From positions 1-7,860 of the forward strand of contig JASKJZ010000108.1 of assembly GCA_030154385.1 (NCBI GenBank): a DNA stretch of 7,860 bases. The letters run 5' to 3'. Shown piece after piece: positions 1,654 to 7,346 of the stretch. The stretch is from Clostridiales bacterium (lineage in GTDB: Bacteria; Bacillota_A; Clostridia; Lachnospirales; Lachnospiraceae). The translations under genes and the position numbers were made by a program. Under the pieces are notes generated by a model. It worked only from the letters and a program-made list of their open reading frames with translations, made no database searches and was not told the DNA's origin. Numbering within the stretch: the stretch's first letter is position 1; every line of letters starts with the position of its first letter.

Positions 1654-4194
1654 CTAGCTTTTATTTGTCAAGGTCTGATCCAAAGGTACCGTATAATAGA
1701 CATATATTTTCTCCACTCCATTTCCATTAAAGGTAACAAGCTGCTTGATTGATATGGTATCAATGTGAATTTTTTGTCCTGGATTAATAAGTACCGCCTC
1801 TCCCTCAAGGGACGTTCCCGTTACGGAACAATTATAGATGGTACTGGTATCAGATAAGCTCACACAGTCATTGACAAGAGCTAATGCATTGGTTACCGTC
1901 TTGGAACTTGTTTCAGCTTTTAGCGTTATTTTTGGAACCGTCTGCGAATCGGTAAAGGTGACCGATGTCGTCTCAAAGTTTAGGGTACCCGATGTATCAA
2001 AATACTTCACCGTTACCTGATAGACCCCAGCTACTGCCTTTTTACACTCTCCCACATTGGAATTACTGGTTGATATTTTTACAGGATAGAGTACCACTGA
2101 ATTACCATTTAATACGGAGCAAAAGGTCTCTCCCTTTGCTGGAGTAGCGGTCAAATCATTGGCATAATAAAGTCCATCCTTTTGTATCGTAGCACTGGTT
2201 ATACTGGCATATCCTGCAAAAATACCACCGATATATTTTTTTAGACGTACCGTAACTCCCTGAACACTTGTATCGGATGGTTGTACAATCATATCAAAGC
2301 TTGGATGATCTGCCTCAATTTGGTATCCGATACTTCCTGTCGCAGGTACGGTCTGCACCACTACCGTAAAACCAGCAGCAAGGGTTACCCCATTTAATAC
2401 AAAGGTCGCCGTAAAATCATATGTGGATGCTGCAACCCCTCTCGCATCCAGTACAATTTGATGATTACTCTTATCATAGGATGCCAGCACTTTTCTTCCA
2501 TTATTTTCTTTTATGGTGCAGGTTTCGTTCTGCATACTTATTTCTTTTCCGTATTGATCCTTAATGGTTACATCCAAATATTCCCGGTAGTCATAGACAT
2601 AGATATTGGACATCGTAACAGCATTTCTGCTAAGAACCGCGGTAGTCGGGATCTTTTTTTCTAATATTGTAATAACTTGTGTATAGGTAACTTCCTTCGT
2701 TCCCTCTTTTGCTATAATATTAATGGTCACATTTCCGGTCTTGATAGGTGTTAATTTTCCATCCGGATCAATAATCAGCGAATTATCATCCGCAGATGTA
2801 TATTGCACCGAACTATAACTAATTTCCTTCCCGTAGCTATCAAGCGCTCGAAAATGTGCATACAGGGTATCCCCTACTGCAATCGATGTAACCGCCTGGT
2901 AACTGGAAGAGGAAAAGTTTGGTGCCGTTTTTGAATCGGTAAGTGTAAAATCCGTTGTAGAGGATACGGTTGTTCTCGCCTCTACACACTTAATTGCCTT
3001 GCTAGCGGTAATGACAGGAGAGACATTGTCCTTTTTATAGATAAGTGTAACATTTGCCGTCTTTCCAACCGTATACATGTACAAAGTGTCTTTTTCTGTT
3101 TTATAACCATTTACAACTTCTGCGGAAAGAGTCGTCGTTCCCGTTGCCGCTGATTTTACATCAATATTATTTGCATCATAGAGCGCATACTCAATCGGAG
3201 TTTCCTTCCCCTCTTCGACTGTTTCCGTTAAAATAACTGCCTTTGTCACTGCACCAACACTGGCGATAAAGGCTCTAGCACTTCTGGCATAGCTTATGGT
3301 ATAGGACAGCTTATCTCGGAAATTCTCATTTGTGGTAACATATGCACCCTTTCCATCGCTGGAAAAAACAACGCTTTTGGGGGTTAAGGTCTCCGTTCCA
3401 CTCGTGATACGAATTGCAAAATCAGAAGCCTTCACATCATTTTTTGCAACATCACTAAAGACTGCATAAAATTGATTGGATGCCACCTGCTTGACAGACT
3501 CAAGGGTTAATCCAACACTTACACTCTTTGTATGGTATACAATCGTCTTTCCTGTTTTTGAATTTTTCGCAACCGCTTTGATTGTATACGTTCCATTTGC
3601 TGTAGGTGTCCATACACCATCGGAAGTAATCTCAGAAGAATAATCTTGACCATTTAAACTAATGACACTCCAGTACACCTTACTGGTGGTATTAGCTGGC
3701 TGAATATTTGCATCAAAGTCGTAGGCTTTCCCAACCACAAGTCCATCCAAATCATCCGTAATCTTACTTGTGCTAATCACGACATCCGTAGCCTGAATCT
3801 TTAGCTTTACACGATCCTTCACTTGTTTGACCAAGGTTCCCTTGGAAGAGTAAATCTTTGCCGTAATTGCCAGGATAGCATTTCCTGCATCCGCAGCTCC
3901 TTTGCTATCAATCGTTACCTTATTACTTGAGGTTCTTCCCTTTACCTCTCTTTGCGTATACTTAAGCTTTGCATATTTTTTCCCAGCTCCTGTTAATACC
4001 CATTTTACCTTTTGTCCCTTTTTCACATTGGTAACGGTATATGTATATACTCCCTTTGCACTTGAGTTTTCATACAAAGAGCTTCTTACTTTTTTAAAGG
4101 CAGGACTTTCATCTGCGCTCGCTTGGTAGGGTATTGATGTCACAATAAGTGAGAAAGTCAGCAATGCCGCTACCTTCTTCCAAATTTTTTTCAA
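1654..4194 (-). CDS. Large secreted Ig-like repeat surface protein
   Basis: The 846-residue product begins with a classical signal peptide: basic MKKIWKK, a hydrophobic core (AALLTFSLIVTS) and probable cleavage near QASA-DES at about 27-28. The rest is Ser/Thr/Val-rich beta-type sequence. I read tandem Ig-like modules: a first domain about 31-135, a Big_2-like domain about 137-228 (VYWSV ... SDGVWTPTANGTYTIKAVAK), an SbsA-like domain about 229-324, and further modules about 425-512 and 513-615. YGKEIS occurs in both of the last two (454-459 and 548-553). The region 616-846 is less clear. I see no SLH repeats, LPXTG motif, C-terminal membrane helix or catalytic domain, so the mode of wall attachment is unknown and the protein may be released. 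The start is TTG at 4194, backed by AGGAGG seven bases upstream. It is the first gene of a probable operon with two downstream genes, at least one a glycosyltransferase, so it may be a glycosylated surface protein. The family assignment of individual modules is approximate. Confidence 0.85.
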   Translation of the reverse strand: MKKIWKKVAALLTFSLIVTSIPYQASADESPAFKKVRSSLYENSSAKGVYTYTVTNVKKGQKVKWVLTGAGKKYAKLKYTQREVKGRTSSNKVTIDSKGAADAGNAILAITAKIYSSKGTLVKQVKDRVKLKIQATDVVISTSKITDDLDGLVVGKAYDFDANIQPANTTSKVYWSVISLNGQDYSSEITSDGVWTPTANGTYTIKAVAKNSKTGKTIVYHTKSVSVGLTLESVKQVASNQFYAVFSDVAKNDVKASDFAIRITSGTETLTPKSVVFSSDGKGAYVTTNENFRDKLSYTISYARSARAFIASVGAVTKAVILTETVEEGKETPIEYALYDANNIDVKSAATGTTTLSAEVVNGYKTEKDTLYMYTVGKTANVTLIYKKDNVSPVITASKAIKCVEARTTVSSTTDFTLTDSKTAPNFSSSSYQAVTSIAVGDTLYAHFRALDSYGKEISYSSVQYTSADDNSLIIDPDGKLTPIKTGNVTINIIAKEGTKEVTYTQVITILEKKIPTTAVLSRNAVTMSNIYVYDYREYLDVTIKDQYGKEISMQNETCTIKENNGRKVLASYDKSNHQIVLDARGVAASTYDFTATFVLNGVTLAAGFTVVVQTVPATGSIGYQIEADHPSFDMIVQPSDTSVQGVTVRLKKYIGGIFAGYASITSATIQKDGLYYANDLTATPAKGETFCSVLNGNSVVLYPVKISTSNSNVGECKKAVAGVYQVTVKYFDTSGTLNFETTSVTFTDSQTVPKITLKAETSSKTVTNALALVNDCVSLSDTSTIYNCSVTGTSLEGEAVLINPGQKIHIDTISIKQLVTFNGNGVEKIYVYYTVPLDQTLTNKS

Positions 4195-4363: not shown

Positions 4364-5758
4364 TTATTTCATTTTTTCCAATCCGAGGCGCTCACAAGTC
4401 TCGTCAATAACTGCCACTAATTCATCATCCGTAAGCACCGTAACGCGTCCTCCTTCGTATTCTGCGTCAACCCAGGCCTTTACCATTGCTACAACTTCCG
4501 AAGCTTTATCCACCTGTTTATCTTGAGGAAGCTTGTAATAGGTATTCATCCAATGGGCAATTCCTGCAAGTCCTGATGTATTGGACACTGACACCAGTAC
4601 AGGACGATTTAAGAACTTTTCGGTATCAAAGATATTATAGATTTCCTCGTTTTTCAACAGACCATCCGCATGGATTCCTGCTCTGGTCACGTTGAAGTTT
4701 TTCCCTACAAATGGTGTTCTGGACGGCACCTTATAACCAATTTCTTTTTCATAATAATCTGCAAGCTCCGTTATGACAGTCGTATCCATACCATCCAGCG
4801 TTCCCTTTAACTGTGCATATTCAAACACCATTGCCTCAAGCGGTGTATTTCCCGTTCTCTCTCCTATACCAAATAACGAACAGTTTACTCCGGAACAGCC
4901 ATATAACCAGGCAGTCGTTGAATTGGAAACCGCCTTGTAAAAATCATTATGTCCATGCCATTCAATGAGTTCAGATGGAAAACCAGCGTGTACCATGATT
5001 CCATAGATAATACCTTGTACTGATCTTGGGATTACCGCACCTGCATAATTGACCCCATATCCCATCGTATCACAAGCACGTACTTTAATCGGTATGTTAT
5101 ACTCCTCCATCAGTTTTGTAAGCTCCATACAAAATGGAATCACATATCCATAGATATCGGCTCGTGTCACATCCTCCAGGTGACATCTTGGACTAATTCC
5201 CGTATCCAGACACTCCCGAATAATACTTAAGTAATGATTCATTGCTTCTTTTCTGGTCATCTTCATCTTGTAAAAAATATGATAATCAGAACAACTTACC
5301 AAGATTCCCGTTTCTTTCATACCAATCTCTTTTACCAGTTCAAAATCTTTTTTACTTGCCCGAATCCAGCTCGTAACCTCTGGAAATTTATAACCACGCT
5401 CCATACATTTATAGACCGCATCGCGATCCTTCTTACTGTACAAGAAGAATTCACTTGCGCGAATAATTCCGTTTGGACCTCCTAATCGATGCAAATAGTC
5501 ATAAATTGTCACAATCTGCTCTGTCGAATAAGGTGCTCTTGACTGCTGCCCATCACGGAATGTCGTATCGGTTATCCAGATTTCGTCTGGCATATGATGT
5601 GGTACGATACGATCATTAAAGGCGATTTTGGGAACCTCATCGTACGGGAATAGATTCCGAAAAACGTTTGGTGTTTGCACATCCACGAGTGGATACATAT
5701 GTTCTTCTAGCTCTAACAAATTGGTATGCAGATTCATTCTGACAGCTCTATTTTCCAT
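4364..5758 (-). CDS. Re-citrate synthase-like enzyme (isopropylmalate/homocitrate synthase family)
   Basis: This 464-residue enzyme belongs to the acyl-CoA-condensing DRE-TIM metallolyases. The catalytic signature DTTFRDGQQ is at 64-72 (D64, R68, D69). RCHLEDVTRAD follows at 191-201, the metal-binding HGHND at 268-272 (H268, H270), and GERTGNTPLE at 299-308. The roughly 60-residue N-terminal extension before the signature, Q in place of E in RDGEQ, and segments such as SCSDYHIF and HRLGGPNG match my recollection of Clostridium kluyveri-type Re-citrate synthases rather than LeuA. LeuA places its signature near the N-terminus and carries a long regulatory tail that is absent here. The likely reaction is acetyl-CoA + oxaloacetate to citrate, feeding 2-oxoglutarate and glutamate synthesis in anaerobes. 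Homocitrate or isopropylmalate synthesis is less likely. Start ATG at 5758 has AAAGGGG seven bases upstream. It appears to be monocistronic, with its own promoter and terminator; no aconitase or isocitrate dehydrogenase gene adjoins it. Confidence 0.8.
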   Translation of the reverse strand: MENRAVRMNLHTNLLELEEHMYPLVDVQTPNVFRNLFPYDEVPKIAFNDRIVPHHMPDEIWITDTTFRDGQQSRAPYSTEQIVTIYDYLHRLGGPNGIIRASEFFLYSKKDRDAVYKCMERGYKFPEVTSWIRASKKDFELVKEIGMKETGILVSCSDYHIFYKMKMTRKEAMNHYLSIIRECLDTGISPRCHLEDVTRADIYGYVIPFCMELTKLMEEYNIPIKVRACDTMGYGVNYAGAVIPRSVQGIIYGIMVHAGFPSELIEWHGHNDFYKAVSNSTTAWLYGCSGVNCSLFGIGERTGNTPLEAMVFEYAQLKGTLDGMDTTVITELADYYEKEIGYKVPSRTPFVGKNFNVTRAGIHADGLLKNEEIYNIFDTEKFLNRPVLVSVSNTSGLAGIAHWMNTYYKLPQDKQVDKASEVVAMVKAWVDAEYEGGRVTVLTDDELVAVIDETCERLGLEKMK

Positions 5759-5859: not shown

Positions 5860-7065
5860 TCATTTTTGGCGAAATATGTAGAGGATACTTCCATAAAAAA
5901 GAGCAAAGAAAAACAAAAGAACCCCAAGCCCATGAAAAATTTTATTTAGACCAAAGACATCTCCAAGGAAGCCGCTTAATGGAAATAATACAATCATGGC
6001 AACCGAAAAAAACATACTGTTTATCGACAAAATAGTTGCTCTTTGTTCACTTGGAATTTGTTCATTCAGCGCATTGGAGGAAATCGGATAGAGCAGGGCA
6101 TTGAAAAAGTTCAAAGCAAAAAAAGATGCAACTGCAATTCCAAGGTGCTCCCATCCGAAGAAAAAGATACAAAAACCCATTATGCCCGCTGCCAAATAGC
6201 CTGATTTTTCTCGAAAGATACGATAAAAGGGTTTGGCGGTCAGGGCAGCAACGGAACAAATCACACCAGAAACCAGCATAATAAGTGCAATTTTCGTTTT
6301 GCTAAGTCCCATATCTAAAAATTTTTGCTGTCCATAAAAATACGTTAAAGTCTGAAATGAAAACACTACGGGGTAATAACACAAAATCGCACGAACATTT
6401 GACTGCTGTCGCAAAATCTGATACGCGCCCTGTGCATGCTTTTTAAGGCTTATCGTATCTTGCTTTTCATGAACCAACGGCTCTTCAAAAAAGGTTCCGC
6501 AAAAAAAAGCGAGCAAATCATTTACAATTTGACAAATGTAAGTAAGCGTAAAAGATATATCCGAAAGGACTCCTCCCACAAACGAAGAAGCTCCCTGCGA
6601 CACTTCGATAATAAAATTCAGCCTTCCATTGACGGATAAGTACTCTTCCTCTCTCTTTACCTGCTTCATACTATCATATACAAGTGCTTCTTCTGAGCCA
6701 GAATTTAAATTATAGCTGGCCGCACTTAAAACAAACGAAAGCGCAAACATCCAAAATTGGTCCGAACACAGCATAAGAACTGAAGAACTTATGGCCAGTA
6801 TTCTTCCAAGCAGCAGCATATTTTTTCTTCCAAATAAATCCGCCATCGCTCCGGTTGGAACTTCAAAGAAAAAACTCGTTACATGAAATATTCCCTCTAG
6901 TAATCCGATTTCCCCAAGACTCATTCCTCGATAAGCAAGATAGAGTATCCAAACAGCACTGCTTAAACTAAAATTAAAAAGGCCACAATATACATAATCA
7001 ACACCTACATTTTTTATTCGTTTCATAATGCTCCAATCTGTTGTAAAAATATTCAAATACGTCAA
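5860..7065 (-). CDS. MFS transporter, probable drug or metabolite efflux
   Basis: This 401-residue integral membrane protein has about twelve hydrophobic segments. Motif A of the major facilitator superfamily is visible as GAMADLFGRK (72-81), between helices 2 and 3. EQIPSEQRATILSINSM (335-351) is a recurrent segment in a Firmicutes MFS group that also carries FEVPTGA (67-73). Members are usually called multidrug or macrolide efflux proteins; the substrate cannot be read from the sequence. The start is uncertain. TTG at 7065 has AGGAGG (7075-7070) but only four bases of spacing. ATG at 7026 (residue 14, MKRIKNV) has a weaker GGAG four bases upstream and would begin where relatives I recall begin. 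Upstream lie a leader with a small ORF and a terminator about 22 bases before the TTG start, so expression probably depends on readthrough. A MATE efflux gene lies further upstream. Confidence 0.85.
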   Translation of the reverse strand: MTYLNIFTTDWSIMKRIKNVGVDYVYCGLFNFSLSSAVWILYLAYRGMSLGEIGLLEGIFHVTSFFFEVPTGAMADLFGRKNMLLLGRILAISSSVLMLCSDQFWMFALSFVLSAASYNLNSGSEEALVYDSMKQVKREEEYLSVNGRLNFIIEVSQGASSFVGGVLSDISFTLTYICQIVNDLLAFFCGTFFEEPLVHEKQDTISLKKHAQGAYQILRQQSNVRAILCYYPVVFSFQTLTYFYGQQKFLDMGLSKTKIALIMLVSGVICSVAALTAKPFYRIFREKSGYLAAGIMGFCIFFFGWEHLGIAVASFFALNFFNALLYPISSNALNEQIPSEQRATILSINSMFFSVAMIVLFPLSGFLGDVFGLNKIFHGLGVLLFFFALFYGSILYIFRQK

Positions 7066-7085
7066 GTTGCCTCCTAAAAATGGGC

Positions 7086-7119
7086 ATAAAAAATCCTGTC
7101 AAGTTATACCTGACAGGAT
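7086..7119 (-). terminator. Rho-independent terminator just upstream of the MFS gene (candidate attenuator)
   Basis: On the minus strand ATCCTGTCA (7119-7111), a nine-base loop and TGACAGGAT (7101-7093) form a perfect 9-bp stem, followed by an uninterrupted T run to 7088. It ends about 22 bases before the TTG start of the transporter, leaving no room for a new promoter. The transporter should therefore be expressed only when this terminator is bypassed. Confidence 0.88.
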
Positions 7120-7145
7120 ACTGCGCATATCTCAAATTGGATTTT

Positions 7146-7286
7146 CTATAGGCTTGAATCGATAGAAAGTTCCACTTTTTTCGAAAAAAAGGCGCAGTAA
7201 CCCAATTTCCCCAAAAATACATGCGTTAATTCGCGAAAACTACTTACTACGATTGCAAAACCTTTTGACTTCGAATCTAGCTTCAT
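7146..7286 (-). CDS. 46-residue upstream ORF, possible leader peptide
   Basis: ATG at 7286 to TAG at 7148-7146 encodes 46 residues, starting MKLDSKSKGFAIVVSS and ending VELSIDSSL. A GAAGGG ribosome site lies nine bases upstream of the start. A second in-frame ATG at 7295 would add three residues but sits too close to that site. The peptide has no recognisable domain or clear membrane helix. The stop codon lies inside a 7-bp hairpin about 27 bases before the terminator stem, so ribosomes on this ORF would melt the upstream helices and could decide how the leader folds. This is the layout of leader peptides that control efflux and resistance genes by ribosome stalling; the role here is inferred from position only. 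It could also be a chance ORF. Confidence 0.45.
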   Translation of the reverse strand: MKLDSKSKGFAIVVSSFRELTHVFLGKLGYCAFFSKKVELSIDSSL

Positions 7287-7315
7287 CTTTACCATCCCTT
7301 CTATCTTTTTTGTTT

Positions 7316-7344
7316 ATTCTAGCAAATCAATTCAAAAAAAGCAA
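7316..7344 (-). promoter_or_regulatory. Candidate extended -10 promoter for the leader and MFS gene
   Basis: On the minus strand TTGCTT (7344-7339), a 17-base spacer, then TAGAAT (7321-7316) preceded by TGC, which makes an extended -10 element. The -35 box is poor (three of six). It begins two bases after the stop codon of the MATE gene. No convincing terminator separates the two genes, so transcription from the MATE gene may also enter the leader. Confidence 0.55.
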
Positions 7345-7346
7345 GC

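Follow-up and report, generated by a model that had tools for sequence, protein, structure and literature searches.

In erm and cat leaders, a short peptide senses a ribosome-targeting drug and a helix swap frees the Shine-Dalgarno (SD) site of the gene; control of this kind is mostly translational and is often carried on mobile resistance genes. In the vmlR leader of Bacillus subtilis, as described in PMC9226507, an upstream ORF lies in an anti-antiterminator, an antiterminator competes with an intrinsic terminator and a TTNTTT pause motif is present; an extra hairpin partly masks the SD of the gene, and transcription and translation attenuation are combined. The leader analysed here is like vmlR in architecture, and it differs in its gene: vmlR encodes an ABC-F factor with lincosamides and others as inducers (PMC9226507), whereas the gene here belongs to the major facilitator superfamily (MFS). 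By its description in PMC4191407, the bmrCD leader of B. subtilis is a second likeness, with ribosome-mediated transcriptional attenuation before a drug exporter, although bmrCD is an ABC transporter and not an MFS protein. Leader-ORF elements found computationally, uORFC-8-2 (cysS) and uORFC-6-1 (hflX), are comparable as well, but belong to other genes and lineages, and the term "mfs" has no occurrence in the main text of that paper (PMC8632094). Among the open-licence PMC papers listed by our literature search, none names this leader in its title or in the opening of its abstract. The mechanism appears to be of a known kind, and the family, with its peptides and its exporter-like partner, appears to be new. 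We consider it highly probable that the leader is a ribosome-mediated attenuator of vmlR-like layout.

The element lies on the minus strand (7346-7066) of the window, by which we mean the whole 7,860-nt stretch of Lachnospiraceae DNA that was analysed, and all features given below are on that strand. On one side it is flanked by a MATE-family transporter gene (7859-7347), truncated at the edge of the window, and on the other by an MFS transporter gene (5860..7065; 401 aa, TTG start; Pfam MFS_1, 98.9 bits), which would be the regulated gene and has the SD sequence AGGAGG at 7070..7075. The MFS product bears a loose likeness to multidrug or tetracycline-type exporters, with scores far below curated cut-offs. 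Adjoining the MFS gene is a 464-aa HMGL-like protein (4364-5758) that scores far under the curated cut-offs of isopropylmalate and homocitrate synthase models; an HMGL neighbour is also found in the related locus L021. Farther along, an 846-aa ORF (1654-4194) has no Pfam match and by eye resembles a surface protein that is secreted and bears a signal peptide. A short ORF recognized in the sequence (MPIFRRQLDVFEYF..., 6998..7087) begins immediately downstream of the terminator and extends across the MFS start; its product begins MPIFRRQLDVF..., L021 has ATGCCC at the matching position, and in the homologue P0006 the sequence MPNFK runs directly into the transporter reading frame.

The first-pass annotation had described a promoter, a small ORF, competing helices and a strong terminator packed into these 281 bases, and all of them are present, the promoter as a match at chance level. 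The promoter-like site consists of a -35 hexamer TTGCTT (7339..7344), weak by itself, and a -10 hexamer TAGAAT (7316..7321) preceded by TG as in an extended -10. Together, TTGCTT-17-TAGAAT (7344-7316) fits 8 of 12 consensus positions, which 81 of 200 shuffles match, so that the -10 of the window copy does not stand above shuffles, and a stricter promoter scan of the window did not report the site. The same -35 hexamer and 17-nt spacing recur at the equivalent place in L021 (TTGCTT-17-TAAAAT; 171 of 200 shuffles as good), and across the family 23 of 36 leaders have a best promoter-like site that no more than 10% of shuffles equal. Downstream, an SD-like AGAAGGGA (7295..7302) precedes a leader ORF of 46 codons (7146..7286; ATG at 7286, stop at 7148-7146) encoding MKLDSKSKGFAIVVSSFRELTHVFLGKLGYCAFFSKKVELSIDSSL and homologous to the leader of L021. 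Inside this ORF lies the switch strand P1 (GGGTTACTGCGCC, 7191..7203), directly followed by a T7 tract (7184..7190) that may act as an RNA polymerase pause or as an anti-SD. P1 pairs with P1' (GCGCAGTATCCT, 7115..7126), which would either form an antiterminator with P1 or contribute its last 5 nt to pairing with the 3' arm of the terminator.

The intrinsic terminator hairpin (7093..7119) has 12 pairs, a 3-nt loop and a T tail at 7092-7088. It has the longest stem among five terminator-like sites in the whole window, a number without excess over the shuffle mean of 4.8. From the end of the T tail at 7088 to the TTG start at 7065 there are 22 nt, the distance first reported for it. A terminator on the same strand downstream of the MATE gene could in principle simply end the MATE transcript, with the MFS gene read from another promoter, and this position is what such a non-regulatory role has in its favour; we give it hardly any credence, in view of the mere 22 nt left between tail and start codon and of the occurrence of such leaders before the transporter at loci with other upstream genes. 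The 257-nt leader including the terminator folds better than 200 of 200 shuffles (z -3.40), whereas the leader minus the terminator has an ordinary fold (z -1.28, equalled by 20 of 200 shuffles). Since the terminator-less fold is unremarkable, the other helices gain no support from folding energy by itself.

A protein search with the window transporter retrieved 824 proteins at E 0.001 or better; among the best 120 of these 824, the five closest besides the window protein are 61-64% identical and come from the sources lgn or jgi. Scanning contigs with the transporter yielded 11 loci (L001-L011) at 40-52% identity, nine of which (L002-L010) carry leaders of a shared plan, here called group I; of the other two, L011 contains merely a gene fragment and L001, with a 45% identical transporter, showed no leader upstream of the gene. 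A second, transporter-only search of 378 Lachnospiraceae genomes (E 1e-40 or better) gave 10 loci, and the leader is present in all 10. L021 is the closest relative examined, with a 62% identical transporter, the order MATE-leader-MFS-HMGL as in the window, and a leader (MLLDSKSKGFHIVVSSSSEKTHVFTEKLGYCAFF) that is an evident relative of the window leader; these two form group III. Group I leaders occur in L022-L025, at the places of L009, L018, L019 and L020, and group II leaders in L026-L030, where the transporters are 32-34% identical. Most of the examined MFS relatives at about 29-45% identity have a leader of the same plan with a group I or group II peptide. The same genomes recur across searches, so these counts are not independent samples. 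With leaders at 9 of 11 and 10 of 10 loci, the view that the attenuator-like leader belongs to the MFS transporter is supported. The element had been proposed with a stake declared beforehand, the conservation of its terminator and helices upstream of orthologous transporters; both are conserved there, and the element survived. Its link to this one transporter family is steady.

Comparison of the leaders revealed distinct peptide classes. The group I peptide reads MNGxGYxPxCSSSSxSKTC with small variations, followed in all of L002-L010 but L007 by a RDYCAxF-like segment. The group II peptide is MxWKTxNLxLxKG overall; in L026-L030 it takes the form M[STG]WK[TN]xxxxxxKG and ends in YGDSA[LP]FF or ISAPIF. 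In group I, mean variation at codon positions 1, 2 and 3 is 0.09, 0.07 and 0.29 (18 codons, 11 of 12 loci, L006 being excluded for length), and group II shows a weaker form of the pattern (0.22, 0.21 and 0.31; 12 codons, 22 loci). Between the window and L021 leaders, the residue is identical at 27 of 34 codons, five of these via a synonymous change. Judged by these substitution patterns, the upstream part of the leader ORF is conserved as a peptide in groups I and II. The window leader itself has diverged: SSSSEK of L021 is SSFREL in the window, where only two Ser codons are adjacent, and the stop that follows P1 in L021 (TTTTTTTAG) is lost in the window leader (TTTTTTTCG). The otherwise typical leaders of L040 and L046 likewise extend well beyond P1.

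These peptides bear on the idea of an amino-acid-starvation attenuator, in which the ribosome would stall on codons for a scarce amino acid (Ser or Cys in group I) and the transporter would respond to amino acid supply. The Ser codon run of group I, with Cys on its flanks in most leaders (CSSSSxSKTC), is what such a leader might look like. However, group II has the same RNA plan and the same transporter family without any such run, the window leader retains just its one Ser pair, and the transporters resemble drug exporters, distant as that resemblance is from the curated cut-offs. We regard starvation control as improbable. Because the peptide classes differ, a signal from any single amino acid is disfavoured, and the inducer is most likely, we infer, an antibiotic or another ribosome-acting compound.

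A leader that binds a ligand or protein (a riboswitch, a T-box or an RNA-binding protein site), with the ORF incidental, would produce similar output parts. Riboswitch-type elements commonly act through a terminator with competing helices, and both are found here. The Rfam search of the window returned no family at gathering score, known riboswitch and T-box classes included, in agreement with the initial failure to match the element to any of them. The best sub-threshold match was ncr1575 (RF02452; 28.1 bits over 7219-7088 against a gathering threshold of 60), and the window matches at permissive E-values were chance-like and were dismissed. Among 22 submitted relative loci, no Rfam family fell on any leader; the sole hits there were three tRNAs and one TwoAYGGAY RNA (RF01731, 70.7 bits; L006:2241-2406), which lies about 160 nt upstream of the group I leader of L006. 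With the ORF conserved as a peptide and P1 located within it in most leaders, a ligand- or protein-binding leader is very improbable, and on sequence grounds the element has the look of an attenuator that senses ribosomes through a leader peptide, and not of a riboswitch that binds a ligand.

P1 is inside or at the end of the leader in all three groups; its start coincides with or closely follows the ORF stop in L051 and L052, and L054 has no P1. Its sequence is GGGATTACTGCGCC in group I, with the variant ATTATTGC in L004, L005 and L017, and GGGGATAGTGCGC in group II, with the variant TATAAGTGCGCC in L037, L039 and L041. L007 and L020 retain the group I sequence GGGATTACTGCGCC in a different reading frame, and P1 is therefore conserved as RNA. 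At least four Ts follow in 35 of 35 leaders having P1, and TTNTTT occurs within 14 nt after P1 in 20 of 35. The pairing of P1 with P1' reaches -18.5 kcal/mol in the window (0 of 200 shuffles as good) and -15.9 in L021. For 30 of the 35 leaders no more than 5% of 200 mononucleotide shuffles give a duplex as stable, the test failing in L009, L037, L039, L041 and L049.

The relation of P1' to the terminator differs by group. As detected by script, P1' overlaps the terminator's 5' arm in 16 of 21 group II leaders, and it does so in the window and L021 as well. The script chose the wrong terminator for L035 and L048, which have the same layout as the others once correctly anchored. No terminator was detected in the group II variant of L037, L039 and L041. 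In L037 and L041 a hairpin seen by eye, GCATTATC...GATAATGC, would cover the SD of the transporter, which suggests control of translation only. The P1' of group I lies directly next to the terminator (gap of -1 to 5 nt, 12 of 12) and does not replace it. Antiterminator and terminator are alternative, mutually exclusive pairings, with the qualification that in the window the two helices can partly coexist: when the window is folded with P1 free, an 8-bp P1:P1' helix stands beside an 11-bp terminator. Given the roughly 5-nt overlap and this partial coexistence, the effect of P1:P1' in the window may be to weaken termination without abolishing it.

The same strand also faces the transporter start. 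Where group II leaders have a terminator, its 3' arm is at once the SD region of the transporter (AAGGAGATTTTTTTATG and similar), so that one hairpin would both stop transcription and mask the start. The terminator of group I leaders stands downstream of P1' and ahead of the gene, and their P1' (GTAATTCC) shows complementarity to the SD region of the transporter (GGAATTAC). This complementarity beats 95% of 1000 shuffles in 9 of 12 loci, and the remaining three fall at 5.3-7.8%; the nine include L018, whose best match is located upstream of the SD site, which leaves direct support from 8 of 12. P1' was chosen in group I by its pairing with P1, and only its SD match is an independent test. L020 and L006 are altered on both sides of the P1'/SD pairing. 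The L020 SD site scores -9.1 kcal/mol against its own P1' and a mean of -3.5 against the P1' of other loci; the L006 site scores -12.5 against its own and -9.2 against the others (53 of 1000 shuffles). We read P1 in this light as a putative decoy copy of the transporter SD region, and the element in the relatives seems also to control access to the transporter ribosome-binding site, as judged from these complementarities. The window P1' matches the AGGAGG site of the MFS gene poorly, and control in the window would be mainly by termination.

Checking related loci for covariation, as proposed at the outset, uncovered two-sided changes in group II, for P1:P1' mainly in L060. The count was made on group II alone because the P1 strands of groups I and II differ by insertions, and it excludes L037, L039 and L041 (no terminator), L054 (no P1) and L061 (one-base deletion). 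In 18 rows, P1:P1' is 89.9% paired (49-61% when slid) and near-invariant, with no excess of two-sided change (202 of 500 shuffles), and the terminator has nine two-sided cells (1 of 500 shuffles). After L058-L060 were added, P1:P1' is 90.5% paired over 21 rows (48-60% when slid) with three pairs changed on both sides, a number that 0 of 500 shuffles reach, and the terminator has 12 two-sided cells (0 of 500 shuffles) at 89.0% pairing; the shuffles ignore relatedness, so these shuffle counts are not probabilities. The P1:P1' signal arises from the added rows, mainly from L060, which holds two of the three changes, the third being in L053. In L060, P1 (AGGGTCAG), P1' (CTGACTCC) and the terminator arm (GGAGTT) have all changed together. 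In L061, GGGGAAG pairs with CTTCTCC. Such coordinated changes, observed in a few relatives, support both the P1:P1' and the terminator/SD pairings as predicted.

The arrangement can be put together as follows. A ribosome would translate the leader ORF during transcription of the leader by RNA polymerase, and if unhindered it would leave P1 either covered or re-paired with an upstream strand (P0 in many relatives). With P1 sequestered, P1' would join the terminator and transcription would stop before the transporter; in relatives, the P1' strand could also mask the transporter SD region. A ribosome stalled in the conserved peptide upstream of P1 would instead leave P1 free to form P1:P1', which would open the terminator at its base, or else the masking helix, and allow the transporter to be made. 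The spacing is compatible with such a stall: SKTC ends at codon 19 in group I, with P1 starting at about nucleotide 73, and LxKG ends at codon 13 in group II, with P1 starting at about nucleotide 58, so that a ribosome halted at the end of either block would not quite reach P1, given a presumed footprint of some 15 nt ahead of it. Where the stop follows P1, the finishing ribosome would cover P1; the longer ORFs of the window, L040 and L046 would need the upstream strand instead, and in the window the loss of this stop means that a ribosome at its stop codon would not cover P1. Leader translation, stalling and the direction of the effect, together with the inducer, are what we infer from the parts and their conservation.

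P0, the leader SD region, is a candidate for the upstream strand. Of 35 leaders, 20 have a pairing of this region with P1 plus the T tract that surpasses 95% of 300 shuffles; in L008, GGGCGCAG pairs with CTGCGCCC, and in L037, GGGCGCAC pairs with GTGCGCCC. The pairing is at chance in the window (130 of 300 shuffles) and in L021 (125 of 300). Together with the T tract, P0:P1 might itself serve as an earlier, first terminator. Six full-length ribosome-free folds were made. P0:P1 forms in L002, L036 and L040, as the proposed mechanism wants; L008 shows P1:P1' rather than P0:P1, the opposite of its default; and the folds of the window and L021 place P1 in helices internal to the ORF.

Within this evidence the window copy is the weakest link; it is not the best example of the family, and it may be leaky or partly decayed. 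A stronger version of this would make it a decaying relic, regulated in relatives and leaky or constitutive in the window, as the lost stop after P1, the change from SSSSEK to SSFREL, the weak promoter match and the chance-level P0:P1 pairing might indicate. Yet P1, P1' and the terminator are all retained, P1:P1' is stronger than that of L021, the leaders of L040 and L046 also run past P1, and L021 too is without significant P0:P1 pairing. We hold a relic to be unlikely, and we retain attenuation by a translating ribosome as the preferred reading for the window as well.

Searches that started from the leader, not the transporter, recovered the same association. The group I peptide profile matched 5 of 397 genomes, with the MFS family downstream in 5 of 5 (including L002's own locus, a profile row); on the whole genomes behind six contig-scan loci it found a single copy in each of five and no copy in the sixth, the genome of L011. 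The group II profile matched 22 of 397 genomes, and 20 of 22 matches are tied to the same MFS family. Profile rows, or sequences identical to them, make up six of these (L036-L041, at the places of L030, L026, L027, L033, L029 and L028); of the remaining 16, 12 stand before an MFS ORF, L042 and L054 before a decayed MFS start, and L055 and L056 were left unconfirmed. A class-wide search of 381 genomes with the group II profile gave five matches, four of them before MFS genes (L040, a profile row, and L059, L060 and L061) and L058 without a transporter. A strict P0:P1 pair pattern hit 3 of 397 genomes, G034 and G353 having already been seen, and its reversed control hit 0.

Some leaders seem to have outlived their transporter, the MFS gene being decayed behind L042 and L054 and absent behind L058. 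L042 had been considered as a leader moved to another exporter gene, and this was rejected, as the sequence is a decayed MFS start. At L055, a short ORF ending in KGQKFKVYGISALFF resembles the end of a group II leader without the usual start, and no downstream ORF of at least 110 aa was seen; the stretch preceding it we take to be a typical tRNA gene in translation.

Unlike the often mobile erm and cat leaders, the leaders studied here had no plasmid match beyond chance level. DNA searches found nothing with the window leader in plasmids and phages, and nothing with the group II leader in plasmids; the leader-peptide searches of plasmids gave one match at E 10 in one and none in the other, and a 41-nt query of the P1 region gave chance-level plasmid matches only. 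In a phage collection, two unannotated human-faecal scaffolds (L034 and L035) carry a group II leader before the start of the same MFS gene, and two further matches are at chance level. In viral_contigs no relative was confirmed: pattern matches numbered 0, 25 and 1, none of them confirmed, and further searches returned none.

A wider reading is that these leaders form a modular family of ribosome sensors in Lachnospiraceae, in which one P1/P1' chassis and transporter are combined with at least three arrest-peptide classes (SSSSxSKTC, WKTxNLxLxKG and the window type), perhaps tuned to different compounds, and P1' is shared by antiterminator, terminator and SD mask; we offer this tentatively, as a possibility that we judge somewhat less probable than its opposite. 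Because the P1, P1' and terminator/SD strands change together in a few relatives, the alignments suggest that transcriptional and translational control may share one strand, as in vmlR, in another lineage and another gene family. A recurrent, uncharacterised exporter-like family of Lachnospiraceae thereby gains a concrete, proposed mode of induction, and the conserved leader peptides become candidates for direct screening as arrest sequences. If the peptides answer different compounds, these bacteria would carry ready-made sensors of ribosome inhibitors.
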